Assembly (NCBI GenBank): GCA_018648265.1
Contig: JABGRN010000004.1
Location: forward strand, 62,001 to 126,000
DNA length: 64,000 nt
Direction of reading: 5' to 3'
From: Prolixibacteraceae bacterium
Lineage (GTDB): Bacteria > Bacteroidota > Bacteroidia > Bacteroidales > Prolixibacteraceae
Shown here in pieces: positions 8,425-62,072 of the stretch. The translations under genes were made by a program, and so were the position numbers. The notes under the pieces were generated by a model, which did not search any database, was not told where the DNA came from, and worked only from the letters and a program-made list of their open reading frames with translations. Positions within the stretch are counted from its first letter, which is position 1; each line of letters opens with the position of its first letter.

Positions 8425-8457
8425 AAGCCTCCCCAACCCCTCCCAAGGAGGGGCTTT
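8425..8457 (+). terminator. G/C-rich hairpin after P4, possible terminator
   Basis: Directly after the P4 stop codon. CCCCTCC and GGAGGGG (8437-8453) can form a 7-bp stem with a CAA loop, followed by CTTTA. The same architecture appears after the ATPase gene at 55891-55907. It belongs to the family of palindromic intergenic repeats of this genome; a terminator role is an inference from its position. Confidence 0.5.
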
Positions 8458-8537
8458 AGAGACTACCAAATTTGGAGTGCTGTGCTTTTAAGAAATTTAG
8501 AGATGCAAAAGGAAATAACAAATACGTAGAATCCAAA

Positions 8538-8563
8538 AGTCCCCTTTAGGGGATTTAGGGGTT
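8538..8563 (+). repeat. Palindromic intergenic repeat (CCCCTTTAGGGG type)
   Basis: Core AGTCCCCTTTAGGGGATTT followed by AGGGGTT. The half CCCCT/AGGGG is self-complementary. Related copies lie at 11121, 14195, 17139 and 55149, with a T or C in the middle (CTTTAG or CTTCAG). In this copy the permease-tail remnant follows within 10 bp. Confidence 0.8.
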
Positions 8564-8571
8564 AAGAAAAG

Positions 8572-8608
8572 CCAGCAACGCTGGATTGAAGCTCTCCGAT
8601 ATGAATAA
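8572..8608 (+). pseudogene. Orphan permease 3'-end fragment R1
   Basis: Codons from 8582 read W-IEALRYE-stop, the signature end of the neighbouring permeases, but no permease frame continues upstream; the preceding bases are a palindromic repeat. The fragment starts near CAGCAACG, which resembles the codons for the AAT of RAATRNP, and then skips the RNP codons. It is either a scar of a deleted permease or a duplicated target end of an inserted repeat cassette. Nearly the same fragment is at 11153-11190. Confidence 0.7.
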
Positions 8609-8633
8609 TGAATAAATGAAAATTTTACGATAA

Positions 8634-10976: not shown

Positions 10977-10989
10977 ATAATCTGCCTTT

Positions 10990-11018
10990 GCACCCTCTAA
11001 CTCCCTAAAGGGAGAACC
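10990..11018 (+). repeat. Palindromic intergenic repeat (CTCCCTAAAGGGAG type)
   Basis: GCACCCTCTAACTCCCTAAA then GGGAGAACC, placed 13 bp after the P5 stop. The centre CTCCCT/AGGGAG is self-complementary. Sister copies follow P6 (13675), P7 (16619) and P10 (24651), always just downstream of a permease stop codon, so the element marks the 3' side of permease genes. Confidence 0.8.
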
Positions 11019-11120
11019 AGCAAAGGCTACTGAAGTAGGATTTATGAAACGAAAAAAGTACTGTTAAAAATAGAAAAGATGAATATTAAAATTATAACCC
11101 CTCACTCGGAGTTTTGAAAA

Positions 11121-11145
11121 AGTCCCCTTCAGGGGATTTAGGGGT
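11121..11145 (+). repeat. Palindromic intergenic repeat (CCCCTTCAGGGG type)
   Basis: AGTCCCCTTCAGGGGATTTA then GGGGT, the same element as the right ends of the two DUF559 cassettes (14195 and 17139). Together with the left-hand repeat at 10990 it brackets a 100-bp gap without a DUF559 gene, as if the cassette core were lost here. Confidence 0.8.
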
Positions 11146-11152
11146 GAAAAAA

Positions 11153-11190
11153 GTCGGCAACGCTGGATTGAAGCTCTCCGATATGAATAA
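11153..11190 (+). pseudogene. Orphan permease 3'-end fragment R2
   Basis: Codons from 11164 read W-IEALRYE-stop. From GGCAACGCTGG to the stop it is base-for-base the same as R1 at 8572-8608, although the flanks differ. No permease frame leads into it. It lies between the repeat at 11121 and the start of P6, again directly right of the CCCCTTCAGGGG element. Confidence 0.7.
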
Positions 11191-11234
11191 TAATAAACAG
11201 TATTCCCTTAAAATGGGATAAAAAACTAAATCAT

Positions 11235-13661: not shown

Positions 13662-13674
13662 ATTGCCCGCTTTT

Positions 13675-13703
13675 GCACCCTCTAACTCCCTGAAGGGAGA
13701 ACC
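13675..13703 (+). repeat. Palindromic intergenic repeat (CTCCCTGAAGGGAG type)
   Basis: Copy 13 bp after the P6 stop, nearly identical to the one after P7 at 16619. It is the left boundary of the segment shared by the two DUF559 cassettes. Confidence 0.8.
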
Positions 13704-13759
13704 GCAAAAGCTACTGACGATGAATTTTGAACTGATAATAACTTGAAATACAGACTCAA

Positions 13760-13782
13760 AGCCCCTTCATGGGTTTGGGGTA
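13760..13782 (+). repeat. Palindromic intergenic repeat upstream of DUF559 gene
   Basis: AGCCCCTTCATGGGTTTGGG then GT, 13 bp before the DUF559 start codon. Its twin at 16704 has the perfect CCCCTTCAGGGG centre; here one base change (CATGGG) breaks the palindrome. With the element overlapping the gene's stop codon it brackets the nuclease gene as direct repeats. Confidence 0.75.
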
Positions 13783-13795
13783 AAAAGAACAAAAG

Positions 13796-14215
13796 ATGGC
13801 AATTAGTGATAATGTTTCGATGTTTTATAGTGCTAAACCTCACATTTTTGAGAAAGCAAAAGCTTTGCGAAATAATATGACGAGTTCAGAATTAAAACTT
13901 TGGGAGCATTTAAAAGGCAAAAAGATGTTAGGGCTACGATTTCGCCCTCAACATCCAATAGACATTTTCATCGCCGATTTTTATTGCCACCCCATTAAAT
14001 TAGTTATTGAAATTGATGGTGGAATTCATCAAACAATAGAACAAAAAGAGTATGACATTGAAAGAACAGCAGAATTAAATAATTGGGGAATTGAAGTCGT
14101 TCGATACACTAATAATTGTGTTGAAAATAATATTGAACAAGTAATAAAAGAAATTGAACAAATATGCATCAAACGTCAATCGGAGATTTCTCAAAGTCCC
14201 CTTCAGGGGATTTAG
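13796..14215 (+). CDS. DUF559 endonuclease-like protein, copy 1
   Basis: 139-residue soluble protein of the DUF559 family, related to very-short-patch-repair-like and other PD-(D/E)xK nucleases. Visible motifs: ALRNNMTSSELKLWEHLK (23-40), RFRPQHPIDIFIADFYC with D61, and the E72-x-D74 pair in KLVIEIDGGIH, which fit the metal-binding residues of this fold. Activity is inferred. The last six codons (SPLQGI-stop) are formed by the palindromic repeat at 14195, so the reading frame ends inside the repeat. Its first 88 codons are identical, also in DNA, to those of the copy at 16740; the ends differ. It sits between P6 and P7. It could be a plain defence or repair nuclease or a cassette-mobilising enzyme. 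Confidence 0.88.
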   Translation: MAISDNVSMFYSAKPHIFEKAKALRNNMTSSELKLWEHLKGKKMLGLRFRPQHPIDIFIADFYCHPIKLVIEIDGGIHQTIEQKEYDIERTAELNNWGIEVVRYTNNCVENNIEQVIKEIEQICIKRQSEISQSPLQGI

Positions 14216-14220
14216 GGGTG
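14195..14220 (+). repeat. Palindromic repeat encoding the end of DUF559 copy 1
   Basis: AGTCCCCTTCAGGGGATTTA then GGGGTG. The TAG stop codon of the DUF559 gene lies inside it, and the codons read S-P-L-Q-G-I. Same element as at 8538, 11121, 17139 and 55149. Confidence 0.85.
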
Positions 14221-14265
14221 GAAAATAATTTATAAAAAGTACCAAAACTAATTTAAACGCATAAA

Positions 14266-16605
14266 ATGATAAAAGAAAAAATAATGCAATCGTTTAAAAA
14301 TATGAGAGGTAGCAAATCATATCTTTTCATAAATGTAGGTGGATTAGCAATAGCATTTTCAGTTTCTATACTCATAATGCTCTTTGTAATTAATGAATAT
14401 AATTTCGACAAATTCAACACAAACGGGCAAAGAGTTTACCGGATTGAAGAAGGCGAAGACAACCAGGTGCCACTGGCTGTAACCAGAATTTCAGAAGAAT
14501 CTTTCCCAGAGATTGAACAAGCTGTGGTTATAAAATCTTTAAGCGACCCCTGGTTCAGATACGAACAAAACTTTTTTGAAATAGAAGACTTCTGTTTTTC
14601 AGATAATTCATTTATCGATGTGTTTTCCATCCCATTTGTTTCAGGAAATCCGGAGACTGCTCTTGATGCGCCTTATACTATCGTTTTATCAGAATCCGTT
14701 GCAAAAAGGATTTTCGGGGATAAAAATCCCATTGGGGAGCAGATTAATTTCAGGAATGAGAGCGATTATACGGTAACGGGTGTAATAAAAGATTTGCCCG
14801 ATTTTCATTTGCCAGCAAAAGCTATTGCTTCATTTAAATCGGTTGAAGACCAATTTAATCTTTCGGATGAAACCTGGAACTGGGGATTGGTTTCATACGT
14901 TTTGCTTGCCGATAATCATGATATAGATTTTCTTGAGGAAAAGATGAACAAGCATTTCACCAACAATGACAATTGGAATGTTAAAAAACCAAATTTTAAA
15001 TTACGCGCATTCAATAATATTTATCTTGACACTGATACCTATGCAAACGATGAAACTAAACACGGAAGCAAGGCTCTTTTAATTACTTTAATTATTGTTG
15101 CCATTTTTATTTTACTTATTGCAAGTATTAATTTTATTAATCTTACCATTTCGAGGGGACTTAAAAAAGCAAACGAAATTAATATTCGTAGAATTCTTGG
15201 AAGTTCAAAAACGGCTATCATTTTTCAGTACATGATCGACTCCGTAATTTTATGTACAATTTCAATTCTTCTCGCTTTAGCAATTGTATTTTTCTCTCTC
15301 AATTCATATCAAGATTTAATAGGCAGGGAGTTAAATATTCTAAGCATGTTAAATATCAAATATATTCTTTTAATTGTTGTCGGAATAGTAAGTCTAGGAA
15401 TTATATACGGTTTATTTCCCTCGTGGTTTTTAACTAAAGTTGCTACCGGTAAAAGTGGAAAAGGAAGTCAGACGGGTGCAAAGAATTCCAGATTTAATGC
15501 GGGTTTAATCACTTTTCAGTATGTTATATCGATTATACTAATTAGCGGTACAATTATTACTTATAAACAGTTACTATTTACAAGCAATAGCAATCTTGGC
15601 TTCAATAAAGAACAAGTATTGAGTGTTAATTTGGATCCTTCGTTAAAGGCCAATTTAGCCACTTTTAAATCGAAATTACTGGAAAATCCAAACATAAGCG
15701 GAGTCTCATTTATTTCAGATGATATTACTATGCTTAAACAATATTCTAACGCAGTACAAGTCGATGAGGAGCAGTATATATTTAAATATGGCCTTATCGA
15801 CCCTGAGTTTATTCCACTGCTGGATATTGAACTCGTACAGGGTGAAAATTTTTCGCGGGACATCCAAAGTCAAATGTTCCAAAGGGAATCGGGTGGAGGT
15901 TATATTCTTAACGAGGCAGCATGGAATATTTTAAAACAATCTAAAACTAAGGATGCTGGTTATAATATAAACGGCAGGACATTACTCGGTGTAATAGAAA
16001 ATTTTCATTTTGAATCTTTTCACAATAAAATAGACCCGATGATTTTATATTGGGCACCTAGCGATTACCTCAACAAGGCTTTACTGAAACTAAGTGCAGG
16101 AAACACTGCTCAAACCATGAATTATATTGATGAGATATTTAAAGAGTTAGCTCCGCAAAGCTTATTCAAGTATCAATTTATTGACGAAGAATTTAATCAT
16201 TTATACACTACCGATAGGATTATGGTGAGGCTGTTGGGCATTTTTTCAATGTTAGCCATATTAATTGCCACACTTGGTATAATTTCACTTTCAACTATGG
16301 CAGCAGAAAACCGTACCAAAGAAATTGGCATTCGCAAAGTAAACGGCGCAAAAATCGCTGAAATACTTACCATGCTAAATAGAGACTTTGTTAAATGGGT
16401 TGCTTTAGCTTTTGTTGTGGCGCTTCCAATTGCTTACTACGTAATGACAACGTGGCTCGAAAATTTCGCCTACAAAACCAATTTAAGTTGGTGGATTTTT
16501 GCCTTGGCTGGGGTACTTACTTTGGGAATGGCATTGTTAACGGTTTCGTTTCAAAGCTGGCGGGCGGCTACACGAAATCCCGTTGAGGCATTGAGGTATG
16601 AATAA
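14266..16605 (+). CDS. FtsX/MacB-type ABC permease P7
   Basis: 779-residue permease of the common plan. Two start codons are possible, ATG at 14266 and ATG at 14284 (MQSFKNMRGSKSYLF); both keep the full helix 1. First coupling loop EINIRRILGSSKTAI, second KEIGIRKVNGAKIAEIL. The second periplasmic domain contains QMFQRESGGGYILNEAAW. The tail has ALAFVVALPIAYYVMTTW, a small departure from the consensus, then returns to it and ends NPVEALRYE. It lies 50 bp after DUF559 copy 1, and DUF559 copy 2 starts 134 bp downstream, so it is bracketed by the two cassettes. Substrate unknown. Confidence 0.95.
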   Translation: MIKEKIMQSFKNMRGSKSYLFINVGGLAIAFSVSILIMLFVINEYNFDKFNTNGQRVYRIEEGEDNQVPLAVTRISEESFPEIEQAVVIKSLSDPWFRYEQNFFEIEDFCFSDNSFIDVFSIPFVSGNPETALDAPYTIVLSESVAKRIFGDKNPIGEQINFRNESDYTVTGVIKDLPDFHLPAKAIASFKSVEDQFNLSDETWNWGLVSYVLLADNHDIDFLEEKMNKHFTNNDNWNVKKPNFKLRAFNNIYLDTDTYANDETKHGSKALLITLIIVAIFILLIASINFINLTISRGLKKANEINIRRILGSSKTAIIFQYMIDSVILCTISILLALAIVFFSLNSYQDLIGRELNILSMLNIKYILLIVVGIVSLGIIYGLFPSWFLTKVATGKSGKGSQTGAKNSRFNAGLITFQYVISIILISGTIITYKQLLFTSNSNLGFNKEQVLSVNLDPSLKANLATFKSKLLENPNISGVSFISDDITMLKQYSNAVQVDEEQYIFKYGLIDPEFIPLLDIELVQGENFSRDIQSQMFQRESGGGYILNEAAWNILKQSKTKDAGYNINGRTLLGVIENFHFESFHNKIDPMILYWAPSDYLNKALLKLSAGNTAQTMNYIDEIFKELAPQSLFKYQFIDEEFNHLYTTDRIMVRLLGIFSMLAILIATLGIISLSTMAAENRTKEIGIRKVNGAKIAEILTMLNRDFVKWVALAFVVALPIAYYVMTTWLENFAYKTNLSWWIFALAGVLTLGMALLTVSFQSWRAATRNPVEALRYE

Positions 16606-16618
16606 AATGCCCGCTTTT

Positions 16619-16647
16619 GCACCCTCTGACTCCCTGAAGGGAGAACC
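16619..16647 (+). repeat. Palindromic intergenic repeat (CTCCCTGAAGGGAG type)
   Basis: 13 bp after the P7 stop. Left boundary of the second DUF559 cassette; differs from the copy at 13675 only at a base in CTCTGACTCCC versus CTCTAACTCCC. Confidence 0.8.
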
Positions 16648-16703
16648 GCAAAAGCTACTGACGATGAATTTTGAACTAATATTAATTTGAAATACAGACT
16701 CAA

Positions 16704-16726
16704 AGCCCCTTCAGGGGTTTGGGGTA
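16704..16726 (+). repeat. Palindromic intergenic repeat upstream of DUF559 copy 2
   Basis: AGCCCCTTCAGGGGTTTGGG then GT with intact CCCCTTCAGGGG centre, 13 bp before the second DUF559 start. Direct repeat of the right-hand element at 17139. Confidence 0.8.
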
Positions 16727-16739
16727 AAAAGAACAAAAG

Positions 16740-17159
16740 ATGGCAATTAGTGATAATGTTTCGATGTTTTATAGTGCTAAACCTCACATTTTTGAGAAAG
16801 CAAAAGCTTTGCGAAATAATATGACGAGTTCAGAATTAAAACTTTGGGAGCATTTAAAAGGCAAAAAGATGTTAGGGCTACGATTTCGCCCTCAACATCC
16901 AATAGACATTTTCATCGCCGATTTTTATTGCCACCCCATTAAATTAGTTATTGAAATTGATGGTGGAATTCATCAAACAATAGAACAAAAAGAGTATGAC
17001 ATTGGTAGAACAGCAGAAATAAATAATTGGGGAATTGAAGTGATTCGTTTTACCAATGAAGAAATTGAAAATAGTATTAAACAAGTATTAAAAGAAATAA
17101 AAGAAAAATGCATCAAACGTCAAGCGGAGATTTCTCATAGTCCCCTTCAGGGGATTTAG
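16740..17159 (+). CDS. DUF559 endonuclease-like protein, copy 2
   Basis: 139-residue paralogue of the gene at 13796, with the same D61 and E72-x-D74 residues and the same SPLQGI ending provided by a palindromic repeat. Residues 1-88 are identical to copy 1 and the DNA of this part shows no difference; from residue 89 (G instead of E) the two diverge clearly (NEEIENSIKQVLKEIKEKC versus NNCVENNIEQVIKEIEQIC). Such an abrupt border suggests a recent partial conversion or a hybrid formed by recombination. The leader of about 134 bp is also nearly identical. The gene lies between P7 and P8 and is followed by a decayed permease tail. Confidence 0.88.
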   Translation: MAISDNVSMFYSAKPHIFEKAKALRNNMTSSELKLWEHLKGKKMLGLRFRPQHPIDIFIADFYCHPIKLVIEIDGGIHQTIEQKEYDIGRTAEINNWGIEVIRFTNEEIENSIKQVLKEIKEKCIKRQAEISHSPLQGI

Positions 17160-17165
17160 TGGTGG
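17139..17165 (+). repeat. Palindromic repeat encoding the end of DUF559 copy 2
   Basis: AGTCCCCTTCAGGGGATTTA then GTGGTG, overlapping the stop codon of the second DUF559 gene. One base (T for G) differs from the copy at 14195. Confidence 0.8.
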
Positions 17166-17171
17166 GAAACA

Positions 17172-17233
17172 AGCTGGCAGAGTTAGAAAGCAGTAACCAG
17201 GAATCAGAGATGGAGGATTTGAGGTACGAATAA
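17172..17233 (+). pseudogene. Orphan permease 3'-end fragment R3
   Basis: About 62 bp alignable to the DNA encoding SWQSWRAATRNPVEALRYE-stop of P1: AGCTGGCAGAG at the start, AGGAATC in the middle and TTTGAGGTACGAATAA at the end, with an in-frame TAG and a 2-bp insertion. It is the longest and most decayed of the four tail fragments and lies 6 bp right of the palindromic end of the second DUF559 cassette. It can no longer encode a permease end. Confidence 0.75.
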
Positions 17234-17242
17234 GTTTGTTTA

Positions 17243-17266
17243 ACCCCAAACCCCTGAAGGGGCTTA
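17243..17266 (+). repeat. Palindromic intergenic repeat, inverted orientation
   Basis: ACCCCAAACCCCTGAAGGGG then CTT, reverse complement of the element at 16704. A second copy in this orientation is at 55076. No gene lies between it and P8 (17344). Confidence 0.8.
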
Positions 17267-24540: not shown

Positions 24541-24610
24541 CGGAGAGCTGAAATCCCGATGTGTTATTCGTAAGTTTTTGAGGAACGAAAAAATCACAGA
24601 AAAAACAATC

Positions 24611-24637
24611 GGGATTGAAAGTTTGAGATATGAATAA
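24611..24637 (+). pseudogene. Orphan permease 3'-end fragment R4
   Basis: Codons read G-IESLRYE-stop, repeating the last seven residues of P10 71 bp after its real end, with other codons (AGTTTGAGATATGAATAA against TCTCTCCGATACGAATAG). Upstream, ATCCCGAT (24553-24560) and ATCGGGAT (24608-24615) form an inverted pair around the gap. Confidence 0.65.
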
Positions 24638-24650
24638 ATAATTCGACTTT

Positions 24651-45496: not shown

Positions 45497-46330
45497 ATGG
45501 ACATTAAAATCATAGAAACAGAACTCGGGAAAATTGAATACTCCACCACCGGAAATGGAAAACCTCTTTTATTTATACATGGAGGACATACAAATTGTAA
45601 TTCAACACTTTGGCAAAAAGGATTTGATATTAAAAAATTTCAGTTTATTTCACCATCGCGTCCCGGGTATGGGAATACTCCTTTAAATAACAATAAAACA
45701 CCAAAACAACAGGCTGACTTGATAATTTCTTTATTGGATTATATGAGCATAGACAAAGTAATTTTGTATGGAATTTCTGCAGGAGGCTTAACTACTATCG
45801 AATTTGCCAGCAACTATCCCGAAAGAGTAGAAAAGTTAATCTTAGCTTCTTGCGTATCAAAAGAATGGTTAGATAAAAAAGGAAAAATATATAAAACTGC
45901 ACAGCGGATATTTAACCCAAAAGTTGAGGGATTTGTTTGGAGGATGATTCGTTTTTTTTCTGGAATATTTCCAAATTTAATTGCAAAAAACTTTTATCCG
46001 CAGTTCACATCCAAGCCAACCCATAAACTAATAAAAGAAGATGTTAATGAGTTGATATCAATGTTTAAAGATTTTGGTTCAGGAAAGGGATTTGTGAATG
46101 ATATTGACCAAATTATTGACCAAGATTTGATTTCTAAAATAAAATGTCCGACCCTTATAATTCATAGTAAAAATGATAATAGCGTTCTGTTTGAACATGC
46201 TTTGCACTCAAATAAAATGATAGATAATTCAAAACTCGTTGAACTGAACAATGAATGGGGTCACTTATTTTGGATAGGCAAGGATTCGAATGATTCAATA
46301 CGTAAAACAATAGAATTTTCAACAGAATAA
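45497..46330 (+). CDS. Cytoplasmic alpha/beta hydrolase
   Basis: 277 residues. LLFIHGGHTN (oxyanion region, about 26-35), nucleophile elbow YGISAGGLTT with the serine near position 96, acid in IIHSKNDNS and histidine in NEWGHLFW near the end. No signal peptide. Typical proportions for an epoxide-hydrolase/esterase-like enzyme with a lid (about 140-190, rich in aromatic residues). It lies 29 bp after the amidohydrolase and 58 bp before the SDR gene. Substrate unknown. Confidence 0.92.
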   Translation: MDIKIIETELGKIEYSTTGNGKPLLFIHGGHTNCNSTLWQKGFDIKKFQFISPSRPGYGNTPLNNNKTPKQQADLIISLLDYMSIDKVILYGISAGGLTTIEFASNYPERVEKLILASCVSKEWLDKKGKIYKTAQRIFNPKVEGFVWRMIRFFSGIFPNLIAKNFYPQFTSKPTHKLIKEDVNELISMFKDFGSGKGFVNDIDQIIDQDLISKIKCPTLIIHSKNDNSVLFEHALHSNKMIDNSKLVELNNEWGHLFWIGKDSNDSIRKTIEFSTE

Positions 46331-55065: not shown

Positions 55066-55075
55066 TGAGGATTTT

Positions 55076-55098
55076 ACCCCAAACCCCTGAAGGGGCTT
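55076..55098 (+). repeat. Palindromic intergenic repeat, inverted orientation
   Basis: ACCCCAAACCCCTGAAGGGG then CTT, 10 bp after the P11 stop. It faces the element at 55149 in inverted orientation, so the two could pair to enclose the 50 bp between them. Confidence 0.8.
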
Positions 55099-55148
55099 TA
55101 AGAAAGATATACTACTAATTAATAAAAATATAAACGAAGCACTTGACA

Positions 55149-55173
55149 AGTCCCCTTTAGGGGATTTAGGGGT
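55149..55173 (+). repeat. Palindromic intergenic repeat (CCCCTTTAGGGG type)
   Basis: AGTCCCCTTTAGGGGATTTA then GGGGT, 39 bp before the ATPase start. Same element as at 8538. It might weaken read-through from P11 to the ATPase. Confidence 0.8.
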
Positions 55174-55212
55174 ACAATGAAATAGACAATTAATTAACAC
55201 TAAAATAGCAAA

Positions 55213-61287: not shown

Positions 61288-61309
61288 TTGAGCTTTTTTG
61301 AATTTGCTG

Positions 61310-61317
61310 CAAAGATA
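61310..61317 (-). promoter_or_regulatory. gltX: Probable -7 box (TATCTTTG) for gltX
   Basis: Minus-strand TATCTTTG, exact TAnnTTTG match, 22 bp before the gltX start codon. No TTG at the -33 distance. Confidence 0.65.
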
Positions 61318-61365
61318 GAAGAAAATGGGTGATTGAGTGAATGGAAAATTAAGTGAAAAATAATA

Positions 61366-61559
61366 TTATTTTCTGTCTGGTTTTGGAACACTTAATTGTT
61401 TGCAAATTAATTCACATAAATAGTCATCAATTTCTGAGTGCCGGGGTATTACCGTTTTATTGCAATTGCTATGATTTATATATCTATCATGCCTGCCTCC
61501 GTGTTTCACAAATCCACAATTGTTTTATTCAAATATTTAATGAATTTAATACGCTTCAT
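61366..61559 (-). pseudogene. hicA: hicA toxin gene with one-base deletion
   Basis: From ATG 61559 (minus) the frame reads MKRIKFIKYLNK and then hits a stop (TIVDL-stop). One base further it continues NNCGFVKHGGRHDRYINHSN, CNKTVIPRHSEIDDYLCELI and CKQLSVPKPDRK-stop at 61366, which is a clear HicA mRNA-interferase (hydrophobic first helix, G-x-x-H catalytic region, TVPRH-like motif). The deletion is in a run of A (AATAAAACAA, expected one A more). The length, 194 bp, is one short of 65 codons. The gene lies 10 bp after hicB. Either the toxin is dead or a slip restores it. Confidence 0.85.
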
Positions 61560-61569
61560 GTGAACGGAA

Positions 61570-61779
61570 TTATGCAATAACAATTTCTTCCTCTGAAAGC
61601 ATTTCTCCTTTAGGTGAATATCTTTCCCTTAAATCTTCTAAATACATTTCTAATGCGTCTAATATATTTTTACGTAACTCCTGAATATTTTCACCTTGTG
61701 TAAATACTTCTGGTAACTCCTTTAGTTGTCCAACCAGAAAACTATTCTTTCCCTTTTTTATTACTAAAGTTAATTTCAT
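61570..61779 (-). CDS. hicB: HicB family antitoxin
   Basis: 69 residues with the HicB partial RNase-H-like fold: LTLVIKKGKNSFLVGQLKEL, PEVFTQGENIQELRKNILDA and a short tail (LSEEEIVIA). It would bind and inhibit the HicA RNase and usually represses its own operon, but no separate DNA-binding domain is visible in this short form. The order is hicB then hicA, the reverse of the Escherichia coli system. With the toxin frameshifted, the antitoxin now appears to be kept alone. 10 bp separate the two genes. Confidence 0.88.
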   Translation of the reverse strand: MKLTLVIKKGKNSFLVGQLKELPEVFTQGENIQELRKNILDALEMYLEDLRERYSPKGEMLSEEEIVIA

Positions 61780-61848
61780 AATTAAAACTTTTTACAAAAA
61801 TACATAAAACAAATAATTGATATCAACATCTTCGGGATATTTTGAAAG

Positions 61849-61971
61849 TACCCCCTGTTTCGTCCTTGCTCCGATAAATCGGAGACGGCGGCCTCCACTG
61901 TCCCCCTCAATTGAGGGGGACAGTTTGAGCCGTAAGACCGCTTGACGGGATAAAGGCGATAACAGGGGGTA
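61849..61971 (+). repeat. 123-bp MITE-like element with inverted ends
   Basis: Bounded by perfect 11-bp inverted repeats TACCCCCTGTT (61849-61859) and AACAGGGGGTA (61961-61971). Inside are a perfect 26-bp palindrome (61898-61923, centre CTCAATTGAG) and CTCCGAT-AA-ATCGGAG (61869-61884). The short minus-strand frames crossing it are not genes. G/C content differs strongly from the flanks. It lies in the shared upstream region of hicB and kbl, and a TA may be the target duplication. Confidence 0.65.
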
Positions 61972-62072
61972 TAACCCAAACTTTCGCCACATTTTCAGAA
62001 TTCTGTTTTTTATCAATGTTTGTTTCTTCGATATTCATTTAATTTGTATTTCAAAATATAAATATTCCCAAG

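Follow-up and report, generated by a model that had tools for sequence, protein, structure and literature searches.

A 64,000-nucleotide stretch of a Prolixibacteraceae genome (assembly GCA_018648265.1, contig JABGRN010000004.1, positions 62,001 to 126,000 of the forward strand; the window, whose own coordinates are used below) carries an array of permease genes, two of which (P6 and P7) are each followed by a short palindrome-ended unit encoding a nuclease of the DUF559 family. We regard these two units, together with several gene-less relatives in the window, as copies of a mobile element that is probably a homing one, belonging to a family of palindrome-ended selfish elements. The elements have a common structure, keep to constant targets within a nuclease clade, insert in frame, occur as filled, gene-less and empty alleles, and encode a nuclease that has a Vsr-like fold and is under purifying selection. 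The enzyme family, the constancy of the targets, their patchy filling and the scars left behind point to homing.

Nuclease units and gene-less relatives in the permease array

The two DUF559 genes (13796-14215 and 16740-17159, both on the + strand) lie 3′ of P6 and P7, respectively, encode 139 amino acids each and match PF04480 above the cut-off. Their first 265 nt (88 codons) are identical, as an original prediction made from this DNA had it, and 396 of 420 nt agree across the full coding sequence. The prediction also described one and the same 134-bp leader with two palindromes in front of each gene. Both palindromes, CTCCCTGAAGGGAG and CCCCTTCAGGGGTTTGGGG, are present; the leaders (13662-13795 and 16606-16739) are not the same, sharing 128 of 134 bases, and the second palindrome of the first copy (CCCCTTCATGGGTTTGGGG, 13762-13780) is broken by one base. 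A third palindrome, TCCCCTTCAGGGGATTTAG, encodes the last codons and the stop of the gene (SPLQGI*), again in line with the prediction.

The outermost bases of each cassette form an inverted repeat, TTTTGCACCCTCTAACTCCCTGAAGGG versus CCCTTCAGGGGATTTAGGGGTGGAAAA (pairs I4 and I9), so that each cassette is a 555-bp unit: element 1 at 13671-14225 and element 2 at 16615-17169, both on the + strand. In element 1, whose gene product has D61, E72, D74 and H78, the left end (13671-13699) consists of ACCCTCTAA and then the palindrome CTCCCTGAAGGGAG (13686-13699), and the right end (14197-14225, TCCCCTTCAGGGGATTTAGGGGTGGAAAA) overlaps the last codons and the stop; the right end of element 2 lies at 17141-17169. 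The ends follow a common plan, with a CCC(C) block outermost, about five bases and then a hairpin. Both window units enclose a gene, and the foot of their hairpins is without CGTC and, by eye and for the window copies only, without GTAG. The right-end pattern has ten matches with up to two mismatches in the genome to which the window belongs, six on the + strand of the window's own contig, C43 (at contig positions 45981, 70541, 73124, 76198, 79142 and 117152), and one each on C59, C81, C83 and C89; the left-end pattern has three, all within the permease array.

Related repeats without the gene stand 3′ of P5 and P4, as had been noted, and a further gene-less pair was found 3′ of P12. The P5 relative (10986-11151, + strand, 166 bp, in the gap 10977-11234; repeats D2 and D3) has both ends alike and no DUF559 gene. 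The P4 relative (8425-8570, + strand, in the gap 8425-8633) has a different left palindrome, CCCCTCCCAAGGAGGGG, and the right end of elements 1 and 2. Behind P12, the pair of ends ACCCCAAACCCCTGAAGGGG and TCCCCTTTAGGGGATTTAGGGGT occupies 55076-55174 (+ strand, in the gap 55066-55212; locus L012).

Displaced second permease tails follow element 2 and the P5 and P4 relatives. Behind element 2 the tail (17170-17233, + strand) is decayed (...MEDLRYE*) and gives a local alignment to the P7 tail with a score of 27, reached by 0 of 300 shuffles; the other two, TGGATTGAAGCTCTCCGATATGAATAA (11164-11190, + strand; repeats D4 and D7) and WIEALRYE* (8582-8608, + strand; repeat D7), were recognized by eye, without a shuffle test. 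Such a tail lies 3′ of the right end in six of 13 permease cassettes, element 2 included (0/300 shuffles each), which argues that the cassette disturbs the tails locally. The example at locus L066 is 59 bp long, is near-identical to the host's own permease tail and flanks the cassette as a repeat; it has the host-specific change of its own permease, which favours duplication of the host tail over a tail carried in the mobile unit. The original prediction had breaks made by the nuclease driving conversion of the permease tails. This is unsupported: tail identity in the window is 0.739 (1 pair), 0.730 (16 pairs) and 0.746 (28 pairs), with or without a cassette, so that tail homogeneity is no evidence for nuclease-driven conversion. 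Across the array (1-24540), permease C-terminal DNA is about 0.69-0.75 identical against about 0.44 for the bodies, cassette or no; the P5 tail is different.

The palindrome adjoining the DUF559 gene is inverted relative to that of relatives in both window units (13762-13780 and 16706-16724), the first being the inverse of the relatives' left end ACCCCAAACCCCTGAAGGGG. The normal orientation is found 3′ of the displaced tail of element 2, in the solo palindrome ACCCCAAACCCCTGAAGGGGCTT (17234-17265), which is the inverse of the second leader palindrome (inverted repeat I1, 91%).

Conserved targets and their filled, gene-less and empty alleles

Comparison of occupied with empty sites, which the original prediction had proposed, brought out an empty-site polymorphism, at the window's orthologous loci as well as in the ileS and valS alleles below. 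In the same-genus genome G003, the P7 orthologue (80% identical in the part searched) is followed after 20 bp by the P8 orthologue, where the window has a gap of 738 bp; a DUF559 gene of the same clade lies about 5 kb away from this empty site. The P7 orthologue of G024 (89%) is followed by a short gap, with no palindrome seen by eye in the next 760 bases, and by eye neither a palindrome nor DUF559 lies within 420 bp 3′ of the stop of the P6 orthologue of G014 (86%).

PF04480 was found in 33 of 37 genomes of the same genus, the window's own included, with at most seven DUF559 genes per genome. On a tree of 170 DUF559 domains (identical ones removed; 44 with a site label), insertion sites change six times (minimum 5), against a mean of 27 and a minimum of 21 for shuffled labels. 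Clusters of the flanks agree with the clades of the tree for ileS, valS, the site beside metH (9/9) and the permeases. Palindromes are particular to each nuclease lineage, and so, mostly, is the conserved target; several unrelated lineages occupy the same ileS or leuS loop. Of the 13 copies in the permease clade and the clade next to it on the tree, its sister, 11 stand directly 3′ of a permease ending in NPVEALRYE, and two about 1.4 kb further. The tie between nuclease and permease 3′ ends claimed in the original prediction therefore holds within this clade and fails as a general rule: clades of the same architecture sit in ileS, valS, leuS or recG or beside metH, which makes the permease one target among many. 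A permease-only system was rejected, most clades sitting elsewhere.

Alleles were counted in the 30 ileS and 32 valS genomes of the 37 that had both anchors in the loci fetched. At ileS, 20 alleles are empty, with the native loop, five are filled and five carry a small insertion at that loop. In the filled ones (G000, G002, G006, G008 and G012) about 140 additional residues, DUF559 among them, take the place of the loop YPFE-WKENFKDV-FPADF; the short inserts were counted as gene-less, those of G015, G018 and G020 for element-like ends seen by eye and those of G011 and G024 by length alone. At KIEGED-FVTIATTRPET of valS, 20 alleles are empty, seven filled and five gene-less (the state of G012 being assigned by hand from the contig-end locus L048), and every measured insert is a multiple of 3. 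The filling of valS is patchy on a tree of the two host proteins (7 changes for 7 filled alleles; shuffled mean 6.4), and the valS of G003 is filled whereas the 11 relatives whose valS is at least 93% identical all have an empty one. By eye, the gene-less valS of G015 equals the ends of a G021-like filled allele joined at a shared GAC, which is the leftover expected from a deletion between the two GAC triplets of such an allele.

The only valS found in G003, a one-contig genome, has its host frame broken by the element and short open frames downstream (L153/L018), which would reflect either a split gene or an error in sequencing. Further down the valS of G023 (L020, protein P0001), a second palindromic insert, APLNPPEGGN, stands in frame without the gene.

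By Pfam, the host genes are class I tRNA synthetases, an Eco57I-type methylase, RecG, chorismate synthase, guanylate kinase and amino acid kinase. Those with in-frame copies in public genomes are leuS, recG, chorismate synthase, guanylate kinase and amino acid kinase (named by Pfam on 9 of 16 long open reading frames (ORFs), the other leuS and recG hosts and the ileS of L244 by reading). The leuS and valS inserts both stand, by eye, directly before a TTRP(D/E)T motif. Pfam matching of 13 long ORFs that contain DUF559 gave no splicing (Hint/intein) domain with an E value of 0.001 or below. Since the element is stop-free and in frame in ileS, valS, leuS and recG, it is expected to form part of the translated host protein.

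The nuclease and the palindromes beside it

The structure model of the 139-residue protein (pLDDT 88.4) shows one catalytic fold with short ends. The fold comparison draws on three structures: the endonuclease-like protein of PDB 3hrl (sequence E 1e-31; fold Z 15.4), I-Bth0305I of 3r3p (sequence E 9e-6; Foldseek E 1.6e-3, TM(target) 0.80; Z 11.4, root-mean-square deviation (r.m.s.d.) 2.5 over 95 residues) and Vsr (Z 9.5, r.m.s.d. 2.3 over 100 residues). E32, D61, E72, D74, H78 and D87 are near invariant, and 163 of the 170 domains have all of D61, E72, D74 and H78. One paper assigns a DUF559 gene to the EDxHD family of homing enzymes (PMC9403480). Median ratios of non-synonymous to synonymous change (dN/dS) are 0.05 in ileS, 0.07 in valS, 0.10 beside metH and 0.08 in the permease clade, and the sequences thus indicate purifying selection on DUF559 even inside ileS and valS. 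Readings as a defence system (PADLOC matches weak and partial) or as a phage gene (PHROGs matches weak; 3 of 50,697 phage records matching) were rejected.

Hairpins were counted as GC-rich perfect stems of 6 or more with a loop of up to 8, within 350 bp of the DUF559 domain (near) and, for the same-genus set, at 700-1400 bp (far). That set keeps 98 of 103 matches, short ones and the duplicate L105 being left out; it still includes L100, L101, L102 and L104, which are probably not elements and were dropped from the tests of palindrome matching and site labels. The near flanks carry 3.23 hairpins per kb against 0.62 in the far ones. The search of related genomes for DUF559 genes with palindromes, suggested in the original prediction, found a near-flank hairpin at 84 of the 98 domains, and one on both sides at 59. 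Similar values came from public genomes, of which the best 80 loci of at least 530 relatives were scanned, a few repeating the same-genus set: 66 of 81 domains have at least one near-flank hairpin, including 48 with hairpins to the left and right (3.35 versus 0.46 per kb). Among these best 80, nearly all taxa are Bacteroidota, joined by Chloroflexus, Anabaena, two Alphaproteobacteria and Gastranaerophilales. Beside the 23 copies inside long ORFs the density reaches 8.1 hairpins per kb, against 0.66 elsewhere in the same ORF.

Matches to PF04480 occur in 61 of 118 sampled Bacteroidota genomes, some of them weak and through related nuclease families. Of 72,556 plasmid records, 39 match, all below 60% identity. 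Five regions from outside the Bacteroidota were taken from this plasmid set. Two of them (Deinococcus and Picosynechococcus) have clear palindromes on both sides, the Deinococcus plasmid copy with CCTCCCCCGCAAGGGGGGAGG on one side and its reverse complement on the other; the regions of N. gonorrhoeae, E. coli and Azospirillum (3/5) showed no matched palindrome pair at DUF559. Tandem elements were also seen, three copies 561 bp apart in L201 (Pedobacter sandarakinus) and two each in L078 and L079.

In the 105 of 175 elements that have both sides, left and right palindromes differ by 0.19 within an element and by 0.36 between unrelated elements (minimum of 200 draws, 0.33). The family CTCCTCCTN3AGGAGGAG is present in 19 of the 37 same-genus genomes, with up to 13 copies per genome, and TCCCTCTCTN6AGAGAGGGA in 26, with up to 21; reversed-pattern controls gave 0 matches in all genomes for both. 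The palindromes thus outnumber the DUF559 genes per genome, which indicates that gene-less copies spread or persist. The loops of TCCCTCTCT-N6-AGAGAGGGA vary yet often stay self-complementary (ACGCGT, TCGCGA, TTGCAA), as if the hairpin itself were selected.

Probable homing and the alternatives

In the mechanism that we envisage, an element of about 0.4-0.6 kb, laid out as palindromic end, DUF559 nuclease gene and palindromic end, would encode a nuclease that cuts the cognate site where the element is missing, either an allele that is empty or the tail of a paralogous permease in the same array. Recombinational repair of the cut would copy the element in, with the paralogous tails providing the homology for gene-to-gene copying of the cassette within the array, and later decay or deletion of the nuclease gene would leave in-frame palindromes on their own. 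The nuclease probably uses the palindromes as recognition or protection sites, which would let gene-less copies ride along. We tentatively go one step further: the elements may form a distinct class, present across and outside the Bacteroidota. In such a class a minimal nuclease of the Vsr type, framed by palindromic ends, would home into conserved motifs within essential genes, would be read unspliced as an additional domain of tRNA synthetases and other enzymes, and would act in trans to move palindromes that lack the gene.

Several points weigh against homing. Movement and cleavage are inferred from the sequences. The protein is a catalytic domain of about 110 residues with short tails and without a long DNA-binding extension. 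The filling of ileS is only slightly patchy (4 changes for 5 filled alleles; shuffled 4.8), and filled ileS copies diverge more than their host genes (for example, 0.79 versus 0.86), so that recent transfer is not shown there. The valS copy of G003 is broken in the host frame, perhaps by a sequencing error. Displaced tails accompany only 6 of 13 permease copies, no hairpin was detected at 14 of 98 same-genus and 15 of 81 public domains, and, with close copies left out, nucleases that resemble each other have only a weak tendency to share similar palindromes (Mantel test; Spearman 0.084, a value reached by 60 of 2000 permutations).

Among the alternatives, transposition in the manner of REPtrons, the elements built around repetitive extragenic palindromes (REPs), is unlikely, though the least so. 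REP-associated tyrosine transposases (RAYTs) are thought to move REPs; here DUF559 would act on the hairpin ends, single- or double-stranded, and move both the element and its gene-less copies to new sites, the choice of target being secondary. The inverted palindromic ends, the many gene-less pairs and single palindromes (in 19/37 and 26/37 genomes), the tandem copies (L078, L079 and L201) and the presence of different DUF559 lineages at different sites, which implies that new sites are entered, all agree with it. The enzyme, however, has a Vsr-like fold, and in Pfam the part encoded by the element matches only nucleases of the DUF559/MTES_1575 type, with no HUH or tyrosine transposase; clades keep one site across genomes, and by eye no short target duplication is visible at the G003 valS in comparison with its empty relatives. 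We consider it improbable that the palindromes are an independent in-gene repeat, like the Rickettsia palindromic elements (RPEs), which are not known to carry a gene, and that DUF559 is a captured host repair or defence nuclease that hitch-hikes on them. Gene-less palindromes do exist without DUF559, also in frame within the valS of G023, and DUF559 has homologues in further phyla, where the regions examined from E. coli and N. gonorrhoeae lack a matched pair beside the gene. Yet matched palindromes recur at DUF559 in many lineages, the Deinococcus plasmid included, and differ by lineage, and the nuclease is under purifying selection even inside ileS and valS.

Ancient insertions that are inherited vertically and now immobile, with losses giving the patchiness, would explain why ileS elements are more diverged than their hosts, and the short inserts at the same ileS and valS loops show that loss occurs. 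In most genomes, however, the empty alleles keep the native loop (YPFEWKENFKDVF, KIEGED.FVT), which, had they once been filled, would need recombination with an empty allele; moreover, the filled G003 valS stands among 11 empty close relatives and both window sites are empty in orthologues. This account is very improbable. Least credible of all is that an ordinary gene has the palindromes next to it as normal transcription terminators or messenger RNA hairpins. Many genes do end in hairpins, and the right end does lie at the 3′ end of DUF559, but hairpins stand on both sides of DUF559 in 15 of the 23 copies inside ORFs, and their excess there is not explained by terminators, which refutes this account for the in-ORF copies. 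In the window, too, the other intergenic gaps have far fewer hairpins (0.83 per kb, from four hairpins over 4.8 kb that include palindromes of this same kind; coding DNA, 0.05 per kb).

The homing reading invites comparison with known systems. EDxHD or Vsr-like homing endonucleases such as I-Bth0305I, and free-standing homing genes, share the Vsr-like catalytic fold, the placement of the gene, within an element, next to a conserved motif in an essential gene, and the occurrence of both occupied and empty alleles. The elements described here differ in their palindromic ends, their gene-less derivatives and an insert that is read through unspliced, with no intein domain in the host ORFs (Pfam) and, as the host frame stays open, no need of an intron; they also lack the long DNA-binding part, which in I-Bth0305I lies beside the catalytic domain (PMC3943268). 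REPtrons and REPINs with a RAYT (IS200/IS605-like) are alike in having a gene between inverted palindromic repeats and single and paired gene-less copies elsewhere, but their enzyme is unrelated, and the palindromes here have an outer CCCC/GGGG block rather than the GTAG or CGTC tag reported in PMC3733652. RPEs and CGTC-type repeats resemble them as in-frame palindromic inserts within functional genes; according to the same source, CGTC repeats are apparently without a dedicated transposase (PMC3733652), whereas a nuclease-bearing form exists here. Miniature inverted-repeat transposable elements and insertion sequences share terminal inverted repeats and gene-less copies; here there is no transposase, only a nuclease of about 110 residues, and target constancy by clade is strong. 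The original prediction knew of no described system with this combination, and no description was found, judging by titles and the openings of abstracts, in the literature searched, whose coverage takes in few subscription papers; it includes 14 papers with DUF559 and four with COG2852. Palindrome-ended DUF559 elements seem to be a variant of selfish homing or REP-like elements without a published description, and are possibly a class of their own.

These observations set DUF559, a nuclease family that is widespread but sparsely covered in the literature, in the context of a mobile element, and they supply a candidate nuclease for the entry of palindromic repeats in frame into protein-coding genes, a problem already posed by the Rickettsia elements. 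Should the elements form a distinct class, in-gene palindromic repeats would gain the autonomous partner that they have lacked; if the nuclease homes, it would be a very small engine (about 110 residues) that inserts DNA at conserved sites while the host protein still works. The ileS, valS and leuS genes with their natural internal fusions are open to direct study.

Other palindromes were seen besides those of the DUF559 elements. A different family, TCCCGA..TCGGGA, occurs in permease tails and is followed by a displaced ..EALRYE* or ..ESLRYE* tail (window 24541-24640; L055; L056), and a long solo palindrome, ACTGTCCCCCTCAATTGAGGGGGACAGT, lies in the intergenic gap at 61288-62072 of the window.

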